From assembly GCA_021845905.1 (NCBI GenBank), contig JAJZVA010000001.1:1-64000 (forward strand): a stretch of DNA of 64,000 nucleotides, written 5' to 3'. Source of the stretch: Pseudomonadota bacterium (GTDB lineage: Bacteria; Pseudomonadota; Alphaproteobacteria; Micavibrionales; UBA2020). A program made the translations under genes and the position numbers. Position 1 is the first letter of the stretch. Each line of letters begins with the position of its first letter. Of the stretch, positions 13,171 through 52,584 are shown piece by piece. Below the pieces are notes generated by a model. The model saw only the letters and a list, made by a program, of their open reading frames with translations. It did no database searches and was not told the origin of the DNA.

Positions 13171-15477
13171 TCAGGGCCCCGTGCTTTGCGTTTTGTGCAG
13201 GCCGATGCCGGGAGAGAACTCGCCGAGCCCCTTGAACCCGATTTCCAGCATGATCCGGCTGTCGCTGATGCCCGAGGCCACGGTGGCGATGTTGCGGCTG
13301 CCTTCAAGCCCGAAGGTGAAGCATTCGTCGGTATAGTCGATCCCCGCCGAGGCGTTGCGCAGGCCCGGCTGGTTGCCCATGTCATACAGGCCGGCGGTGT
13401 GGAATTTCCATGTTTTCGTGATGTTGTAGGTCTGGTCGATTTCTATTTGCTGGCGCGTGTCGGTGAAGTCCGCGCCGACGCCGGGCTGGTAGTTGGCGGG
13501 CGCGAGGCCGACCACCGGTTTCAGGAAGAAATAGCGGACATTGAAGCGGAAGCGTTTGTCGCCGCCGCTGGCCTGAATCTCGTGGCGGCGCGCGGCGAAC
13601 GACGATCCGTCGAGCAACACGCGGTAATCGGCGAAAAAGTATTTGGACAGACCGAGCTGAATCTGCCCGACGACATCCGAGCGGTTGTTGGCAAGGCCGG
13701 AGCCGTAGGGATAGACCGAATTGCCGTAGAGACGGTAGCTTTCGCCGAGAAAGGCCTTGCCGTATCTTCCGTCGTCTCCGTACAGGCCGCCGCGCAGGCC
13801 GTAGTTGACGCGTCCGCCGTCTTCCTCGCGGTCAAGCCCCGGATAGCGGTTGGTCTGGAAGAGATTGTCGGCGTCCAGCTGCACGTCGACGCTATTGATG
13901 TTCGGAATGGCGGCATAACTGCTCGACGGAAGATCAGGGCTGAGATTGATGGCCACTTCGGGCGCGATCACGGCCTGCGCATGGGCCAGCTCCCTGACCA
14001 GCGGATAGCTGGAAACGAAGCTCGCCGTCGCCATGCCGCGCAGGGTGTTGGGGTTGTTGTTCTGCCCCGGAAGAGCGGTGGCGAGATTTTGCACGGCGTA
14101 CATGTCGGCGCGCCCGTCGAGCGAGACGGTGTTGGAGAAACCGTCCGCCGAGGTGCCGTGCCGCTGCCAGCCGAGGTCGACCGAGCCGGTTTGCTCGTTT
14201 TGCATGTTGGCGTTCTGGCGCAACACCAAAGCCTCGCTCTTCAGCGACCAGCGCCCGCCCCACAAAGCATCGGGCGCGCCCAGCATGTCGCTTTCGACCA
14301 TTGGCAGGATGTCCGGCTGCGTCGTGCCCGTGTTCAGGCGCAAGTCCTGAAAGCCCATGGCGCTGATCAGCGTGTAGTCGCGCCCGGCGAAGCGTTCCGC
14401 GTAGACGTCTGAGGTCAGCACGCCGCTGTTCCTGACGCCCTCGCGCGGCTGGTAATTGCCGTTGTAGAGATCGTAGAAATTGAGATACTGCTGGTCGGAG
14501 GCGCGCTGCAAGTCAAACCCCGTGCGCCATTCGCTGTTGAGGTCGAACCGGCCCTTGGCGAAGATGCTGGCGCGCTGGCGGTTGGGGACGATCGTGCCGT
14601 CCACGTCGCTGCGGTTGGAATTGACCGTGTTGGCGTCGATGCTGAGCTCGCCGTTGGAAAAGCGCTCGCGGTACTGCCCTTTATAAACCGTGCCGGCGAG
14701 AGACGTCGGCTCGACCGCGAGGGTCAGGTCCTTGTCCTTGCTGATGGCGTAATAATAGCCCACCTGCATGTGCGTTCCGACGTCGTTCGACCAGCCATAT
14801 TGCGGGCGCAGGAAGCCGCTTTTCTGCTTTTCCGTCGGATCGGGGTGCGAGAAGATCGGCGACCAGAAAATCGGCACGCCCTCGAAATCCAGCCGCGCGT
14901 TCTTGTAATAAACCATCTTGGTTTTCGTGTTGTCGGTGATCTGCGACGCGCGGATCACCCAGAGCGGGTGCGGGTTGTTCTCGCACACCTTGCAGGCGGT
15001 GTAGGTCGCGTCGGTCATGACGATCTTCGTGCCGCCGTCCTCGCGCTTCGCCTCCGCCGCCGTGAAGCGCGAGCCGTCCGCCAGAAGCGACAAGAGGCCT
15101 TGTATGAAGCCTTCTTTCAGGTGGTCGTGCAACTCCACATATTGCATGAAGTGCACGTCGCCCTTGGCATCGAGCAGGGAAACGTTGCCGATGGCCGTGA
15201 CTTTGTCTTCCGCGAGGTAATAGACCATTTTGTCGGCGCGGAGGATCTGCCTGCCCTGCACGAGCTCGACGTGGCCGATGGCCGTCACCGTCTGGCTGGC
15301 GTCGTCGTGCGTCAGGGAATCCGCCTTGAAATGCACGGGGGTCGTGCTCAAATCCGCCTTTTTGAAAGCGGTTGTCGCCTCCTCCGCCCGCGCGGCGGGC
15401 AACCCTGCAAGCAACAGCGTTCCCGCCACGGTAGCCATGGCGCATAATCTGTATAAACGGGAACGGCGGGAAAACAT
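13171..15477 (-). CDS. lptD: LPS-assembly outer-membrane protein LptD
   Basis: 768 residues. An N-terminal signal peptide (MFSRRSRLYRLCAMATVAG, cleavage after ...PAARA) is followed by an OstA/LptA-like jellyroll (about 45-200, VTAIGHVELVQGRQILRADK) and a large C-terminal beta-barrel. It inserts LPS into the outer leaflet with LptE. The track start at 15504 is a TTG; the ATG at 15477 gives a clean signal peptide and is preferred. Cysteines CKVCENN near residue 160 are candidates for the disulfide that family members need. Confidence 0.92.
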   Translation of the reverse strand: MFSRRSRLYRLCAMATVAGTLLLAGLPAARAEEATTAFKKADLSTTPVHFKADSLTHDDASQTVTAIGHVELVQGRQILRADKMVYYLAEDKVTAIGNVSLLDAKGDVHFMQYVELHDHLKEGFIQGLLSLLADGSRFTAAEAKREDGGTKIVMTDATYTACKVCENNPHPLWVIRASQITDNTKTKMVYYKNARLDFEGVPIFWSPIFSHPDPTEKQKSGFLRPQYGWSNDVGTHMQVGYYYAISKDKDLTLAVEPTSLAGTVYKGQYRERFSNGELSIDANTVNSNRSDVDGTIVPNRQRASIFAKGRFDLNSEWRTGFDLQRASDQQYLNFYDLYNGNYQPREGVRNSGVLTSDVYAERFAGRDYTLISAMGFQDLRLNTGTTQPDILPMVESDMLGAPDALWGGRWSLKSEALVLRQNANMQNEQTGSVDLGWQRHGTSADGFSNTVSLDGRADMYAVQNLATALPGQNNNPNTLRGMATASFVSSYPLVRELAHAQAVIAPEVAINLSPDLPSSSYAAIPNINSVDVQLDADNLFQTNRYPGLDREEDGGRVNYGLRGGLYGDDGRYGKAFLGESYRLYGNSVYPYGSGLANNRSDVVGQIQLGLSKYFFADYRVLLDGSSFAARRHEIQASGGDKRFRFNVRYFFLKPVVGLAPANYQPGVGADFTDTRQQIEIDQTYNITKTWKFHTAGLYDMGNQPGLRNASAGIDYTDECFTFGLEGSRNIATVASGISDSRIMLEIGFKGLGEFSPGIGLHKTQSTGP

Positions 15478-15594
15478 TCTCAGAATATGCCTTGGTTGGA
15501 CCAAAAGCCAATAATCCTGAAAAATCAGTAGGATGTCAACCGCACACTACATTTCTGTCCGTGTATTTTTATCCAAGATGCCCGAAGGTATGCA

Positions 15595-15786: not shown

Positions 15787-16017
15787 TTCTAATCTCCTTT
15801 TTTGTTTATTTAGTTTTTATAGTTTTTATATATTACGAAAATATAAAAATTCTGTAAATCTAAATTCTAAAAATAAAAAATTTTTATTATCAGTATATTA
15901 AGTTATATTTTTCTAACAAACTTTTAAGATGCTCCCATAGGAACTGTCATTATGAAGGCATTTAGCTATGAGAAATCTTGAGCTTCTTTGCTAGAGTGAT
16001 TTTGACAGGAGATGGAC

Positions 16018-16521
16018 ATGGACGGATTTAGGCTCAGCGGTGATTTTTACTTTAATGGACAGAATATCCAGTCGACGGATGAGTTCAGTTTTCGGCTCGG
16101 CATTGATTTCGTGAAGCTGTCGAAAGAAGAGCATGTTTTCATGCGCTCAAGAATTTCGGAATATTTGGGGTTGAAAGCCCATGAGATTCCCGTGCCTTGG
16201 GGAGATAATCCCGCGCAATACGAGCATCTGGGCTTTGATACCAAGCCGAAGGATGTGGAGCGTTGCAAAACGATGATCGGACTTTTGAAAGAAGCCTGTC
16301 TTGCCTCGAGCGAGGACGGCGTTGAGCTAAAGGCCAATGGCCGCCGCTACCCGCTGGATTCCGATCATCCGCGGATGGCATCGATAAATGAGTCGGAAGA
16401 GTTGCGCGGGCGCGTGAAAGACTTCAATGCGCTGAAAGCTTTCATAGCGCAAACGCATGCCGACGCATTGCAAGATATGGCCGTAACCGCGAAGAAAAAG
16501 CCGCAAAACCCTGCGCTTTAG
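16018..16521 (+). CDS. Hypothetical protein, 167 aa
   Basis: Not recognised. It is soluble, with a beta-rich N-terminal part (FRLSGDFYFNGQNI) and a helical remainder, ending in a lysine-rich tail. Two ATGs are six bases apart; the second (16018) is chosen because ACAGGAG is six bases before it and abuts the first. Its TAG stop is created by the end of the MITE-like element (16521-16796). In the reconstructed empty site it would be TAA at the same codon, so the protein is unchanged. Confidence 0.65.
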   Translation: MDGFRLSGDFYFNGQNIQSTDEFSFRLGIDFVKLSKEEHVFMRSRISEYLGLKAHEIPVPWGDNPAQYEHLGFDTKPKDVERCKTMIGLLKEACLASSEDGVELKANGRRYPLDSDHPRMASINESEELRGRVKDFNALKAFIAQTHADALQDMAVTAKKKPQNPAL

Positions 16522-16796
16522 GCTCAGGACCTGTTCATTTCGCGAAATTCCGTAAGGTCAAAATAGTAAAGAGGCAAGGGAAAGCAACGCAGGCGGGCAT
16601 GTATGCCCCCGGCAAGTTGATTTTCCCGCCGCATATTTGCCATTTTCACCTCATCCCTTCGAGACGCGGCGAAAATGCCGCCGCGCGTCGTCAAAGCCCT
16701 TGCGCGTACGCTTCCGCTACGCGTCACCGGGCTTTTCCTAGCGTGATCGGTATTTTCGCTCCGCGCGGAATTCACGAAATGAACAGGTCCTGAGCC
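16521..16796. mobile_element. MITE-like element, copy 1 (276 bp, 22-bp perfect inverted ends, TA duplication)
   Basis: The ends are perfect inverted repeats (ggctcaggacctgttcatttcg at 16521-16542 and its complement at 16775-16796), flanked on each side by TA (16519-16520 and 16797-16798). No transposase is encoded; the ORFs inside are short and arginine-rich by chance. It shares ends and internal blocks with the copy at 50786-51057: GCAAGG.AAAGCAACG, GCGGCGAAAATG, CCGCTACGC and ATTTTCGCT.CGCG. The TA duplication is typical of IS630/Tc1-mariner mobilisation. It lies exactly between two convergent stop codons. Confidence 0.75.
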
Positions 16797-18193
16797 TAAC
16801 CCTTTTTGAGAAACGCGGGCATGTCGTCTGCACCAAAGCCGCCGTTGTTATCCTCGGCATGTTCGGGGCGATGTTTGCCGTGATTGCGGCGTTCTTCATG
16901 ACGTGCAGGCTTTTCGGAATACTGTTTCGCAGGCGAACGTTCATCCTTGCGTCCACGCCCGCCGTGACGGCGACCATTTCCAGAGCGCTCTGATTTTTCA
17001 TGTTGCGGCTTTTCGGGCGCATCAACCAGCTGTTGACCATCTTCGGCTTTAACCTTAACTTCGCCGCCGAATATATTGATTTTTTTGCCTATTAATTTCT
17101 CAATCTGTGCCACGGCTTTGAAGTCGTTCGGCGTCGAGAAGGTGAAAGCTCGGCCTGTCGCCCCTGCTCTGCCCGTGCGGCCGATGCGGTGAACGTAGTC
17201 CTCGGCGTGGAATGGCACGTCCCAGTTGAAAACGTGGCTCATGCCCTGCACATCGAGGCCGCGTGCGGCGACGTCACTGCAAACAAGGACTTGCACGAGA
17301 TCATTCTTAAAAGCATTGAGCGCGACAGTGCGCTCGGACTGTTCCATGTCGCCGTGCAACTTGTCGGTCTTGATGCCCTTCGAGCGCATGAACTTGCAAA
17401 CATCGTTGATGTCGCGCTTGCGGTTGCAGAAGACGAAGGCGTTCTTGACGTCTTCCTGCTGGAAAATACGTATGAATTCCGACGATTTGTTTTTGGAATG
17501 ATCGATGTTGACGAGGAAGTGCTCGACGCTCGTCGAAGCCGATGACGGTGGAGAAACGCTGACAGTTTTTGGGTTTACGAGGAATCTATCAGCCAGTTTC
17601 TTAATTTCTGGCGGCATCGTAGCAGAAAAGAACAAAGTTTGGCGGATTGGCGGCAGAAGAGAAGCGATTTTTTCCAGATCGGGTATAAAACCCATATCCA
17701 GCATGCGGTCTGCTTCATCTATAACCAAAATCTTAATATCGGCCAGCAAGATCTTGCCGCGGCTGAATAAATCCAGCAAACGGCCGGGCGTGGCGATCAG
17801 CACGTCCACTCCGCGGTCGAGAAGCTTGACCTGCTCATCCATCGACGTGCCGCCGACGATCAGCGCATGGGTCAGTGGGTGATATTTGCCGTATTGGTCG
17901 AAATTCTCGGCGATCTGCGCCGCCAGCTCGCGCGTCGGTGACAGAATCAGGGAGCGCGGCATCCTTGCCTTGGCGCGGCCGCCCGCCAGAATGTCTATCA
18001 TCGGCATGGTGAAGGCGGCGGTCTTGCCCGTGCCCGTCTGCGCGAGACCCAGCACATCCCTGCACATCAGCACGATGGGAATGGCTTGCGCCTGAATGGG
18101 TGTGGGGTGTTCGTATCCGACGTCTTTAATCGCTCTAAGGACCGGCTCGCTGAGGCCGAGATCCGTAAAAGTCGTAGTCTCTTTAAATTCCAT
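16796..18193 (-). CDS. DEAD-box RNA helicase, RhlE-like
   Basis: 465 residues, ATP-dependent RNA helicase of the RhlE type, acting in ribosome assembly or RNA turnover. Motifs in order: Q motif (GYEHPTPIQAQAIP), Walker A AQTGTGKT, PTRELAAQ, DEAD in LVIDEADRMLD, SAT in FFSATMP, ARGLDVQG and HRIGRTGRAG. A basic, low-complexity tail (about 385-460) fits RNA binding. The long track ORF starts at 18757, but the ATG at 18193 (MEFKETTTFTDLGL) is where homology starts. Its TAG stop is formed by the MITE-like element end; the empty site would read TAA. Confidence 0.92.
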   Translation of the reverse strand: MEFKETTTFTDLGLSEPVLRAIKDVGYEHPTPIQAQAIPIVLMCRDVLGLAQTGTGKTAAFTMPMIDILAGGRAKARMPRSLILSPTRELAAQIAENFDQYGKYHPLTHALIVGGTSMDEQVKLLDRGVDVLIATPGRLLDLFSRGKILLADIKILVIDEADRMLDMGFIPDLEKIASLLPPIRQTLFFSATMPPEIKKLADRFLVNPKTVSVSPPSSASTSVEHFLVNIDHSKNKSSEFIRIFQQEDVKNAFVFCNRKRDINDVCKFMRSKGIKTDKLHGDMEQSERTVALNAFKNDLVQVLVCSDVAARGLDVQGMSHVFNWDVPFHAEDYVHRIGRTGRAGATGRAFTFSTPNDFKAVAQIEKLIGKKINIFGGEVKVKAEDGQQLVDAPEKPQHEKSERSGNGRRHGGRGRKDERSPAKQYSEKPARHEERRNHGKHRPEHAEDNNGGFGADDMPAFLKKG

Positions 18194-18386
18194 AATGTGA
18201 CGAGGACTTGCCTCTAAATACCCTTTCTCATTTCTGTATAAGCCGTATATACATTGCAAACAGGGGTTTTTCAATGTATTTTGAGTTTTATTTTTACTTA
18301 AATGCAAAGCCTGAGCGCGTGGAGGGCTCGCGCGACGATGGTTTGCTTTGTGAAACAAAGCGTTTTTAAAAAAACGAGGTATCCGT

Positions 18387-19421
18387 ATGGCAAAAAACAA
18401 CCCACAGATGACCATCACGCCGTCTGTCAGCAATCTGCCCGTCAAACTGCCCGTGGCCGCCAACAAGCATGACCATGCGCGCAACCCGGGCACAGAGCTG
18501 AACCTCGACTGGATCGACAACCTGCAAGTTAATTTAAGCGCCGTCGAGCGCCGCACAAGCTCGCTTCTTGGCCGCCGCACGGTCAAGAAGGACTGGCAGG
18601 CGGCATGGTTGCTGAAAGCCCTCTCCTGCATCGACCTCACCACTTTAAGCGGCGACGACACCCCGGGCCGCGTGAAACGCCTCTGCGCCAAGGCGCGCAG
18701 CCCCCTGCGGCATGATCTGGTCGAAGCCCTCGGCATCGAGAGCCTCAACCTCACCACCGGCGCGGTCTGCGTCTATCACGAAATGGTGCCGACCGCCGTA
18801 AAGGCGCTTGAAGGCGCGAACATTCCCGTCGCCGCCGTCGCGGCCGGTTTCCCGCACGGGCTTTCGCCGATGAAGCAACGCCTCGCCGAGATCCGCGCCT
18901 CTGTTTCGGAAGGAGCGAAGGAAATCGACATCGTCATCACACGCGGCCATGTGCTCACCGGCAACTGGAAAGCGCTTTATGAAGAAGTCAAAGCCTTCCG
19001 CGAAGCCTGTGGCGACGCGCATTTGAAATCCATCCTCGCCACCGGCGAACTTGCCACCATGCGCAACGTCGCGAAAGCAAGCATGGTCGCGATGATGGCG
19101 GGCTCGGACTTCATCAAAACATCGACCGGAAAGGAAAGCGTCAACGCCAACCTCGACGTCTCGATGGTCATGGCGCGCATGATCCGCGAATATCTCGACC
19201 AGACCGGCTTCAAGGTCGGCTACAAGCCCGCGGGCGGCATCAGTACTGCCAAGAGCGTGATGGGCTTCCAGTTTTTGATGAAAGAGGAACTTGGGGCAGA
19301 ATGGCTCCAGCCGGATTTGTTCCGCGTCGGCGCCTCTTCGCTGCTCGCCGACATCGAACGCCAGCTCGAACATTTCGTCACCGGCCGCTATTCGGCGAAC
19401 AACAGGCATCCGGTGGGGTGA
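18387..19421 (+). CDS. deoC: Deoxyribose-phosphate aldolase
   Basis: 344 residues; cleaves 2-deoxyribose 5-phosphate to acetaldehyde and glyceraldehyde 3-phosphate. The Schiff-base lysine is in GSDFIKTSTGK, with the usual VGYKPAGGI lysine motif downstream and CIDLTTL near the N-terminus. It belongs to the longer, eukaryote-like DeoC group. GAGG precedes the start. The neighbouring ALDH16-type dehydrogenase (20124-22535) could oxidise the acetaldehyde. The stop overlaps the start of the GIY-YIG gene by one base. Confidence 0.93.
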   Translation: MAKNNPQMTITPSVSNLPVKLPVAANKHDHARNPGTELNLDWIDNLQVNLSAVERRTSSLLGRRTVKKDWQAAWLLKALSCIDLTTLSGDDTPGRVKRLCAKARSPLRHDLVEALGIESLNLTTGAVCVYHEMVPTAVKALEGANIPVAAVAAGFPHGLSPMKQRLAEIRASVSEGAKEIDIVITRGHVLTGNWKALYEEVKAFREACGDAHLKSILATGELATMRNVAKASMVAMMAGSDFIKTSTGKESVNANLDVSMVMARMIREYLDQTGFKVGYKPAGGISTAKSVMGFQFLMKEELGAEWLQPDLFRVGASSLLADIERQLEHFVTGRYSANNRHPVG

Positions 19422-50144: not shown

Positions 50145-50786
50145 ATGTTGCCGCGCATGCCAGCCTCCAGACACGACACGGATACCGCGCGTCTTATTCT
50201 CGTCGGGCCCATGCAAAAGAGCATTTTGCGCCCCGCGCGGCTCAAATCTCTCACATTGCAAAAAGCCCCGCAAGTCGCGGTGGACGGCGGCGGTGCGTTT
50301 GCCGTCGATCCTGTTTTATGGGTGGGGGACGGCGATTCCGGCATCGTTCCGAAGTCGGTGCCGGTCTGCTTCAAAAGCGATCAGGGTATGACGGATTTCC
50401 GCTTCTGTCTGGAAACGGTGCGTATCTGGAACTGGCGCGAACTACACATCTTCGGCTTTCTCGATGGACGGAAGGATCATGAACTCGCCAACCTCGGCGA
50501 ACTCCACGCGGCTTTGAAAAAACGCCGCGTGCCATCGTCCGCCGTTTTTTATGACGCGAAAAATCGTCCGGTCATCCGTTTCTTTCAGGCGAGGCAACAC
50601 AAAATCAATCTGCACGGGACGTTTTCAGTCTTGGTTATCGAAGCCGCGAAGATCAGCCTCGCGGGGAAATGCAAATATCCGGCGCGCAACGTCGCCCTCG
50701 CTCCGCTGTCCGGCCGCGGCGTTTCCAACGTCGCTTCCGGCGACGTGCGGATCAGCGCGACCAAGCCGTTTTTTATTATTGGCTAG
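50145..50786 (+). CDS. Thiamine pyrophosphokinase-like protein
   Basis: 213 residues. The catalytic-fold motifs of thiamine diphosphokinase can be aligned: VAVDGGG, WVGDGDSG, SDQGMTDFRFCLE (usual K-D-x-T-D) and GFLDGRKDHELANLGEL (usual GxxGGRxDHxxxN). The first lysine of the KDxTD motif is replaced (SDQGMTD), so activity is uncertain. It should convert thiamine to thiamine diphosphate. GAGGATCC precedes the ATG. Its TAG stop is formed by the left end of MITE-like copy 2; the empty site would read TAA. A TATAAT element lies near 50072. Confidence 0.7.
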   Translation: MLPRMPASRHDTDTARLILVGPMQKSILRPARLKSLTLQKAPQVAVDGGGAFAVDPVLWVGDGDSGIVPKSVPVCFKSDQGMTDFRFCLETVRIWNWRELHIFGFLDGRKDHELANLGELHAALKKRRVPSSAVFYDAKNRPVIRFFQARQHKINLHGTFSVLVIEAAKISLAGKCKYPARNVALAPLSGRGVSNVASGDVRISATKPFFIIG

Positions 50787-51057
50787 GGTCAGACCTCATT
50801 AATCTATGGAATTATATAAGCCCTGCGCCGTATTGGATGCAAGGAAAAGCAACGAAAGCGTGGTGGATCCCACGCTGAGTTGCTTTGACGCCGCAGACGG
50901 TGCGGCCGAGGGCTTACCCTTCCGGGCGCGGCGAAAATGACGCCCTGCGGCTTCCAAGGCTTTGACCGTAGCAACCGCTACGCTCTGCAGCCTTGTCATT
51001 GCAGGATCGCCATTTTCGCTTCGCGTAGAATTGCCATAGATTAATGAGGTCTGACCC
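50786..51057. mobile_element. MITE-like element, copy 2 (272 bp, 24-bp perfect inverted ends, TA duplication)
   Basis: Ends gggtcagacctcattaatctatgg (50786-50809) and its complement (51034-51057), with TA on both sides (50784-50785 and 51058-51059). Non-coding inside. It shares end layout (GG-TCAG-ACCT) and several internal blocks with copy 1 at 16521-16796, although most of the rest differs, so they are divergent members of one family. Like copy 1 it fills the gap between two convergent genes exactly: the TPK-like gene on the left and ubiD on the right. Confidence 0.75.
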
Positions 51058-51060
51058 TAA

Positions 51061-52584
51061 TCACGCGCGGCGGCGCGGCTTTTTCTTTTCGTCGTCAAAA
51101 ATCTCGTCCCACAGTGCATTGACGCGGGCGACAGTCTTTTCATCCATAGCGAGCGGTCTGCCCCATGTGCGGTCGGTCTCGCCAAAGGTTTTGTTGGTGG
51201 CATCAAAGCCGATCTTGCCGCCGAGGCCGCTTTTCGGCGAAGCAAAATCGAGATAGTCGATCGGCATATTTTCCAGCGTCACGACGTCGCGCGACGCGTC
51301 CATGCGCGTCGAGAGCGCCCAGAGAACGTCCTCCCAGTTGCGCACATTGATATCCTCATCAACGACAATAATCATTTTCGTGTAGCTGAACTGATAAAGA
51401 TACGACCAGAAGGCGAGCATCATCCGCCGCGCGTGTCCGGTATAACGCTTTTTGATGGAAATGACGGCGATGCGGTACGAGCAGGCCTCCGGCGGCAGCC
51501 AGCAATCGACGATCTCGGGAAACTGCTGTTGCAGCAACGGCAGAAAAACATCGTTCATCGCGACCGCCATGGTCGAGGCTTCATCCGGCGGGCGACCGAG
51601 ATAGGTGGAAAGATAAACAGGCTTCTTGCGCATTGTAATCGTAGAAACGGTGAAAACAGGAAACGGCTCGACGCTGTTGAAATAGCCGGTATGGTCGCCA
51701 TACGGGCCTTCCATCGCGGTTTCCGTCGCCGAAACATGGCCTTCCAGCACGATTTCGGCCTCCGCCGGCACCAGCATCGGCACGGTCTTGCATGGCGTGA
51801 GCGAGAGTTTCTCCCGCCGGATCAAACCGGAGAAATGATACTCGGAAAGCGTATCAGGCAGCGGCATCACGCCGGAGAGGAGCGTTGCGGGATCGGCGCC
51901 GATCGTTACCGCCAGCGGCATGTCCATGCCGCGTTCCTGCCACTGCCTGAAGTGCCGCGCCCCGCCGCGATGCGGCAGCCAGCGCGCGATCAACTTGTTT
52001 TTGCCGATCACCTGCATGCGGTAAATGCCGACATTGTAATCCGCCGTGTCGGCACTGTCCGGCGGGCGGGTCATGACGAGGTTGAAGGTGATCAGCGGCG
52101 CGGGCTCGCCCGGCCAGAAAGATTGTACCGGCAGCTTGTGCAAATCAACGTCCTTGCCGCGCAAAACGCATTCCTGCACCGGCGCTGGCGCGCGGCGTAC
52201 TTCAGGCTTCATCGCCATCACCGCCTTGAGATCGCCATATTTGCCCAGTGTAGAGAGAATTCCCGACGGAGGGTCGGGTTGCTTCATCGCCGCGAGCCAG
52301 CGTCCGTAATCCTGAAAGCCGTTGACATCACACCCCAGCCCGCGCGCGACGCGCTCCACCGTGCCGAAGAGATTGCACACCACGGGGATGGGGCTGAGCT
52401 TGCCGTTTTTCATGATGGGTTTTTCGAACAGCAAAACGGGCCCGTGGTTTTCAAGCACGCGCTTGTGGATCTCGGTCATTTCCAGAACAGTGGAAACCGG
52501 ATACGCGATGCGTTTCAGTTGCCCTTCGGCTTCCAAAGAGTCCAGAAAATGCTGCAACGACTGATGATCTGCGTTTTTCGTCAT
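51061..52584 (-). CDS. ubiD: 4-hydroxy-3-polyprenylbenzoate decarboxylase UbiD
   Basis: 507 residues, prenylated-FMN-dependent decarboxylase of ubiquinone synthesis. Family features: ENHGPVLLFEKP, LNLVMTRP-like NLVMTRP, RWLPHRGGARH, the glutamate-containing EGPYGDHTGYF and the C-terminal WGRPLAMDE. The ATG at 52584 (MTKNADHQSLQHFL) is preferred to the track's TTG at 52632. It lacks a good Shine-Dalgarno (only a GCGGGC), and an FNR-type palindrome is centred 41.5 nt upstream, so a leaderless anaerobically induced mRNA is predicted. It diverges from ubiTUV. Confidence 0.92.
   Translation of the reverse strand: MTKNADHQSLQHFLDSLEAEGQLKRIAYPVSTVLEMTEIHKRVLENHGPVLLFEKPIMKNGKLSPIPVVCNLFGTVERVARGLGCDVNGFQDYGRWLAAMKQPDPPSGILSTLGKYGDLKAVMAMKPEVRRAPAPVQECVLRGKDVDLHKLPVQSFWPGEPAPLITFNLVMTRPPDSADTADYNVGIYRMQVIGKNKLIARWLPHRGGARHFRQWQERGMDMPLAVTIGADPATLLSGVMPLPDTLSEYHFSGLIRREKLSLTPCKTVPMLVPAEAEIVLEGHVSATETAMEGPYGDHTGYFNSVEPFPVFTVSTITMRKKPVYLSTYLGRPPDEASTMAVAMNDVFLPLLQQQFPEIVDCWLPPEACSYRIAVISIKKRYTGHARRMMLAFWSYLYQFSYTKMIIVVDEDINVRNWEDVLWALSTRMDASRDVVTLENMPIDYLDFASPKSGLGGKIGFDATNKTFGETDRTWGRPLAMDEKTVARVNALWDEIFDDEKKKPRRRA

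Follow-up and report, generated by a model that had tools for sequence, protein, structure and literature searches.

IS711, an IS5-family element of the IS427 group from Brucella, a related genus, duplicates TA at YTAR targets (PMC2266754, PMC3163539). Insertion sequences (ISs) of the IS427 group, including IS1248, ISPaes1, and others of Paracoccus, are about 830-865 bp long, have 2-bp repeats, and mostly carry two overlapping open reading frames (ORFs) (PMC3281130). Among smaller repeats, the BOX repeats of Streptococcus pneumoniae encode the stop codon of 36 genes with no strong evidence of truncation, and RUP, linked to IS630-Spn1, is enriched between convergent genes (PMC3049150). Insertion of RU-1 at the 3' end of a gene removed the stop codon and extended the protein (PMC2759123).

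Here we describe a 276-bp element at the 3' ends of two convergent genes in a 64,000-nucleotide stretch (the window) of a 2.42 Mb genome in 26 contigs (G000 is this source genome, Cn are contigs, and G003, G004, G005, and G007 are genomes of the same genus). The element resembles the IS427 group in the TA duplication at YTAR, and IS copies bearing its ends are of similar size; it differs from these ISs in having no transposase and being mostly palindrome. As with BOX, the repeat provides a stop codon without truncation, but BOX is unrelated in sequence, has no link to YTAR or IS5, and carries its stops inside the repeat, not as the target TA plus the first base. RUP and ERIC/RU-1 are likewise small palindromic repeats with TA at their ends; RUP, however, is tied to IS630, and the RU-1 case, in which the stop is lost and the protein becomes longer, is the opposite of ours. 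The 276-bp element is an ordinary MITE of a known transposon group with an unusual distribution. In a limited search of the open-access literature, no published description turned up of IS427-type MITEs that cluster in stop codons, a result that speaks only weakly for novelty; on elements of this kind inserted at stop codons, the search yielded the BOX and RU-1 observations only. The locus provides a concrete, testable case of a mobile element that persists in a gene-dense genome while leaving the genes unbroken.

Anatomy and Copies of the Element

A base-by-base check places the element at positions 16521-16796, with 22-bp perfect inverted ends (GGCTCAGGACCTGTTCATTTCG; left, 16521-16542 on the plus strand; right, 16775-16796 on the minus strand, recovered by end search). 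The inverted arms reach 29 nt at 97% identity when flanking bases are counted. At up to three mismatches, the end sequence matches nothing in the window but the two element ends (0.01 matches expected), and an exact scan of the species-genome collection gave no matches. One TA borders the element on each side, at 16519-16520 and 16797-16798. The initial annotation had reported the same length, ends, and flanks, its range of 16519-16798 being the element plus both TAs, and excising the element with one TA gave us the empty site it had proposed, gcgctTTAAccc.

The element is a long snap-back palindrome for which no coding capacity was found; it holds no transposase gene and no internal ORF of 100 aa. 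Its RNA fold is far more stable than those of shuffled sequences (z = -11), as expected from a long palindrome. Neither an intrinsic terminator nor a promoter pattern rose above chance in the element region, and an Rfam search of the window matched only a tRNA. The earlier reading as a MITE-type element with TA duplication is supported by its ends, its TA flanks, and helicase orthologs (described below) that represent the site without the element.

A search of the genome for further copies, as the initial annotation had suggested, gave several. One copy of the same subtype lies at C11:102283, with A for G at its left end and a right end of another end type, and several more belong to related subtypes; the 276-bp subtype itself is low-copy. 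A second MITE in the window (50786-51057, 272 bp, TA at 50784-50785 and 51058-51059) has the ends GGGTCAGACCTCATTAATC and an inner part 74% identical over 118 bp; its subtype includes C13:44127 and C11:109409. Genome G007 contains a 155-bp element that shares 79% identity with the right half of the 276-bp element. Matches to a third end type, GGACCAATCGACAT, number 27 genome-wide and fall on IS copies as well as MITEs of 69-295 bp; this type (GGACCAATCG...) also borders IS copies with IS5-family transposase matches.

Flanking Genes and Their Stop Codons

To the left lies an orphan ORF of 169 aa (16012-16521, plus strand) that ends CTT TAG, the last G being the first base of the element. To the right, a DEAD-box helicase ORF (16796-18757, minus strand; the true start is probably near 18241) ends GGT TAG at 16798-16796, its last G being the last base of the element. 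The TAG of both genes thus consists of a target TA, which supplies the first two bases of the codon on the respective strand, plus the terminal G of the element. Were the element and one TA removed, the genes would end CTT TAA and GGT TAA on their respective strands, with TTAA in common.

The initial annotation had concluded from this arrangement that the element entered a TTAA shared by two convergent stops and left both proteins unchanged. For the helicase, this conclusion holds: orthologs in G004 and G005 end VPAFLKKG followed by GGC TAA, with the stop at the same codon and the element absent. The 169-aa ORF has no relative among 15 related genomes and no Pfam or PHROG match. As the left gene has no ortholog, we infer its half of the double stop, the former TAA, from the TA duplication. 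In G004 and G005, the sequence that follows the helicase looks, on visual comparison, like the LptD-like gene of the window (13171-15504), so the orphan gene sits where those relatives have no gene.

Other Insertions at Stop Codons

The second MITE of the window borders a thiamin-pyrophosphokinase-like (TPK) gene (50145-50786, plus strand) that ends GGC TAG, again with the target TA and the first G of the MITE as its stop. TPK orthologs end FFIVG, GGT TAA, and have no element. The convergent gene beyond this MITE has its TGA at 51061-51063, two bases past the right TA.

A methyltransferase gene and an HD-domain gene flank a MITE at C13:122461, and each ends in TAG at its border with the MITE. 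The corresponding junction in G004 reads GAA GCT TAA GCC GCC GC, in which the methyltransferase gene ends GCT TAA and, on the other strand, the HD gene ends GCG GCG GCT TAA. The empty site thus has convergent stops that share TTAA in G004 and CTAG in G005; the flank now present in the source genome is ATAA, which is not YTAR. This sister locus is direct evidence for the kind of empty double-stop site that the initial annotation had proposed.

Genes with MITEs or relics at their stops also encode GMP reductase, LpxL, CcmE, carbonic anhydrase, FadD, TilS, and a GST; IS ends border FolE and HemB genes, and the IS relic in G004 borders an autotransporter barrel gene. Two elements, at C11:102283 and G003:C12:28958, begin with A instead of G, giving TAA.

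Proposed Mechanism

The explanation that we regard as best, and in which we have considerable confidence, is that a non-autonomous MITE, moved in trans by an IS427-type IS5 transposase, persists at YTAR stop codons. The transposase would use YTAR and duplicate its central TA. YTAR holds TAR, which is a stop codon if in frame, and the site is palindromic; convergent genes with overlapping stops (TTAA, CTAG) would therefore offer a target at which neither gene is broken. Where TA fills codon positions 1 and 2 at a YTAR site, that codon reads as a stop before any insertion; every in-frame insertion therefore hits a stop, and an element end starting with G would rebuild TAG. In short, the target would contain the stop and the first base of the element would restore it, on both strands at once. 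Copies at such sites would persist, while copies within genes would be lost.

Stop-Codon Bias among MITE Insertions

In a hand-curated list of MITE and relic insertions in the genus, 16 of 19 are at stop codons. A first count gave 14 of 19; on inspection two loci were reclassified or added, C13:57579, where a frameshift lies upstream in the gene, and G003:C12. Four loci were left out: C5:13562, C6:121711, and C8:224533, whose end-like matches were judged to be ambiguous or due to chance, and C4:125, where an IS lies against a MITE and scoring was not possible. The C5 locus would add one stop and the others would be non-stops. The initial annotation had treated the helicase junction as an unusually harmless site; it is not a one-off, since most of the MITE's relatives in the genus also sit in stop codons.

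For comparison, we classified YTAR sites in 224 kb of contig C8, of which 55% are coding, 38% intergenic, and 7% at stops. Background stop rates are thus 7% of all YTAR sites and 16% of non-coding ones, rising to 26% for stop plus downstream-type intergenic sites and 30% for convergent regions; all give small p values. For 16 of 19, the binomial p is about 1e-10 at a background of 16% and 1e-6 at 30%, and for 14 of 19 it is 4e-8 and 1e-4, values that are indicative because events were taken as independent, the gene caller was simple, the list was made with the pattern in view, and the background is one contig. When long open frames are followed outward from element ends, the frame terminated by TA plus G is used at 20 ends versus 3 and 4 for the other frames, in a list that takes in IS ends and one probable chance match (C5:13562). 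Judged by open frames, the 224 kb contain as many as 7 unoccupied double-stop YTAR sites; such sites are not very rare, which makes two double-stop insertions notable, not extreme.

Survival accounts for the direction of this bias, and we infer that survival, through purifying selection, is its main cause. The observed 16 of 19 exceeds what survival predicts for non-coding YTAR sites (16%, or 30% in convergent regions), which may call for a cause besides survival. The size of the bias could reflect an older age of the MITEs, harm done by hairpins at promoters, a benefit at transcript ends, or targeting. We tentatively entertain, as a possibility that we doubt more than we credit, that the MITEs of this genus are in effect specialised on stop codons, with a YTAR transposase and G-starting ends, gene ends as a safe harbour, more retention or targeting than chance would give, and perhaps a function of the hairpin at transcript ends.

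Active targeting of gene ends, or positive retention beyond survival because the hairpin is useful (for example, as a two-way 3' end), would match both the strong hairpins and the gap between 16 of 19 MITE events and the 16-30% expected. Such targeting or retention is nonetheless unlikely in our estimation. IS copies with the same ends, in other genomes, show no clear excess at stops (at most 12 of 57, p = 0.19 against 16%, and several of the ORFs involved look spurious), and the terminator and promoter patterns give this reading nothing above chance; the excess itself depends on a one-contig background, a simple gene caller, and hand-curated events. MITE events lie at stops in 16 of 19 cases versus 12 of 57 for IS copies, a comparison across different genomes with a laxer ORF criterion on the IS side; counted per end, the figures are 18 of 31 for MITEs versus 5 of 24 for ISs (p = 0.007).

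It is far less probable still that the elements cut longer genes short and that each border TAG is a new, premature stop. Any TA-G insertion in the right frame makes a stop, as this reading would have it, but for the helicase, TPK, and methyltransferase genes, orthologs that lack the element have their stop at the same codon, indicating that stops were preserved at these three loci. Most of the other genes concerned are complete by family profiles, coverage extending mostly to or near the C-terminus, with some profiles spanning part of the protein only. In addition, with YTAR as target, a frame-0 insertion lands only on an existing stop. For annotation, persistence at preserved stops carries a warning: a gene is not necessarily truncated because its stop codon coincides with the border of a repeat. 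Any genome with IS427-type elements would allow an inexpensive check of the bias.

The Probable Transposase Partner

Of the first 20 bases at the end of the 276-bp MITE, 18 agree with the left end common among IS427-type IS copies. A search of named genomes kept 80 loci, and paired ends could be found for 57 IS copies in 53 genomes; CP018226.1 supplies three of these copies, two other genomes supply two each, and one (L225) is probably the G004 element again. The copies are about 820-860 bp long, and 55 of 57 are at YTAR, mostly CTAG, where only Y and R are independent evidence because end pairing demanded TA on both sides. Within the genus, 12 of 13 two-ended elements are at YTAR. Same-ended ISs that encode an IS5-family DDE transposase were found at L039, at L047, and at the named-genome loci. 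At L047, in another genus of the same order, an IS with the end GGGTCAGGACTCATT has two ORFs (129 and 124 aa) with matches to NF033580, PF13340, and PF01609. G004 harbors a 611-bp element with ends GGCTCAGGACT/GGCTCAGGACC and a degenerate IS5-family transposase. In the source genome, no intact transposase with exactly the ends of the 276-bp MITE was found; the genome's own IS5 copy (L050) has the ends GGGTCCAG.

These shared ends, the IS5 transposases, the IS427-group features, and the absence of DDE_3 matches point to a partner of the IS5 family and IS427 type, the group being assigned by features and not by a tree with ISfinder references. An IS630/Tc1-mariner-type MITE inserted at TA, the affiliation favored by the initial annotation, is highly improbable: TA duplication is typical of IS630/mariner elements too, but every transposon found with these ends encodes an IS5-family transposase, the IS630-type DDE_3 domain (PF13358) has no match in the genome, and the YTAR preference fits IS427-type elements.

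Additional Observations

Two MITEs in the source genome, at C11:102283-102454 (L014) and C13:124749-124914 (L131), are chimeric, each with one GGCTCAG/GGGTCAG end and one GGACCAATCGACAT end; they were probably joined at shared inner sequence. At C4:111-140 (L099), a single TA separates an IS with GGACCAATCG ends from a neighbouring MITE that shares this end type, as though the flanking TA of the MITE had served as target for the IS. At a convergent junction of fadD-like and lpxL-like genes, a MITE lies at the lpxL stop in the source genome (C11:~181200, L134), and G007 (C152, L041) has a different element end at a fadD-like gene's stop. Finally, at C13:57826-58383 (L130), a gene adjoining a MITE seems frameshifted at a T run (GGTTTTTTTCG), which could be real or a sequencing error; the other frame would end at the TAG of the MITE.
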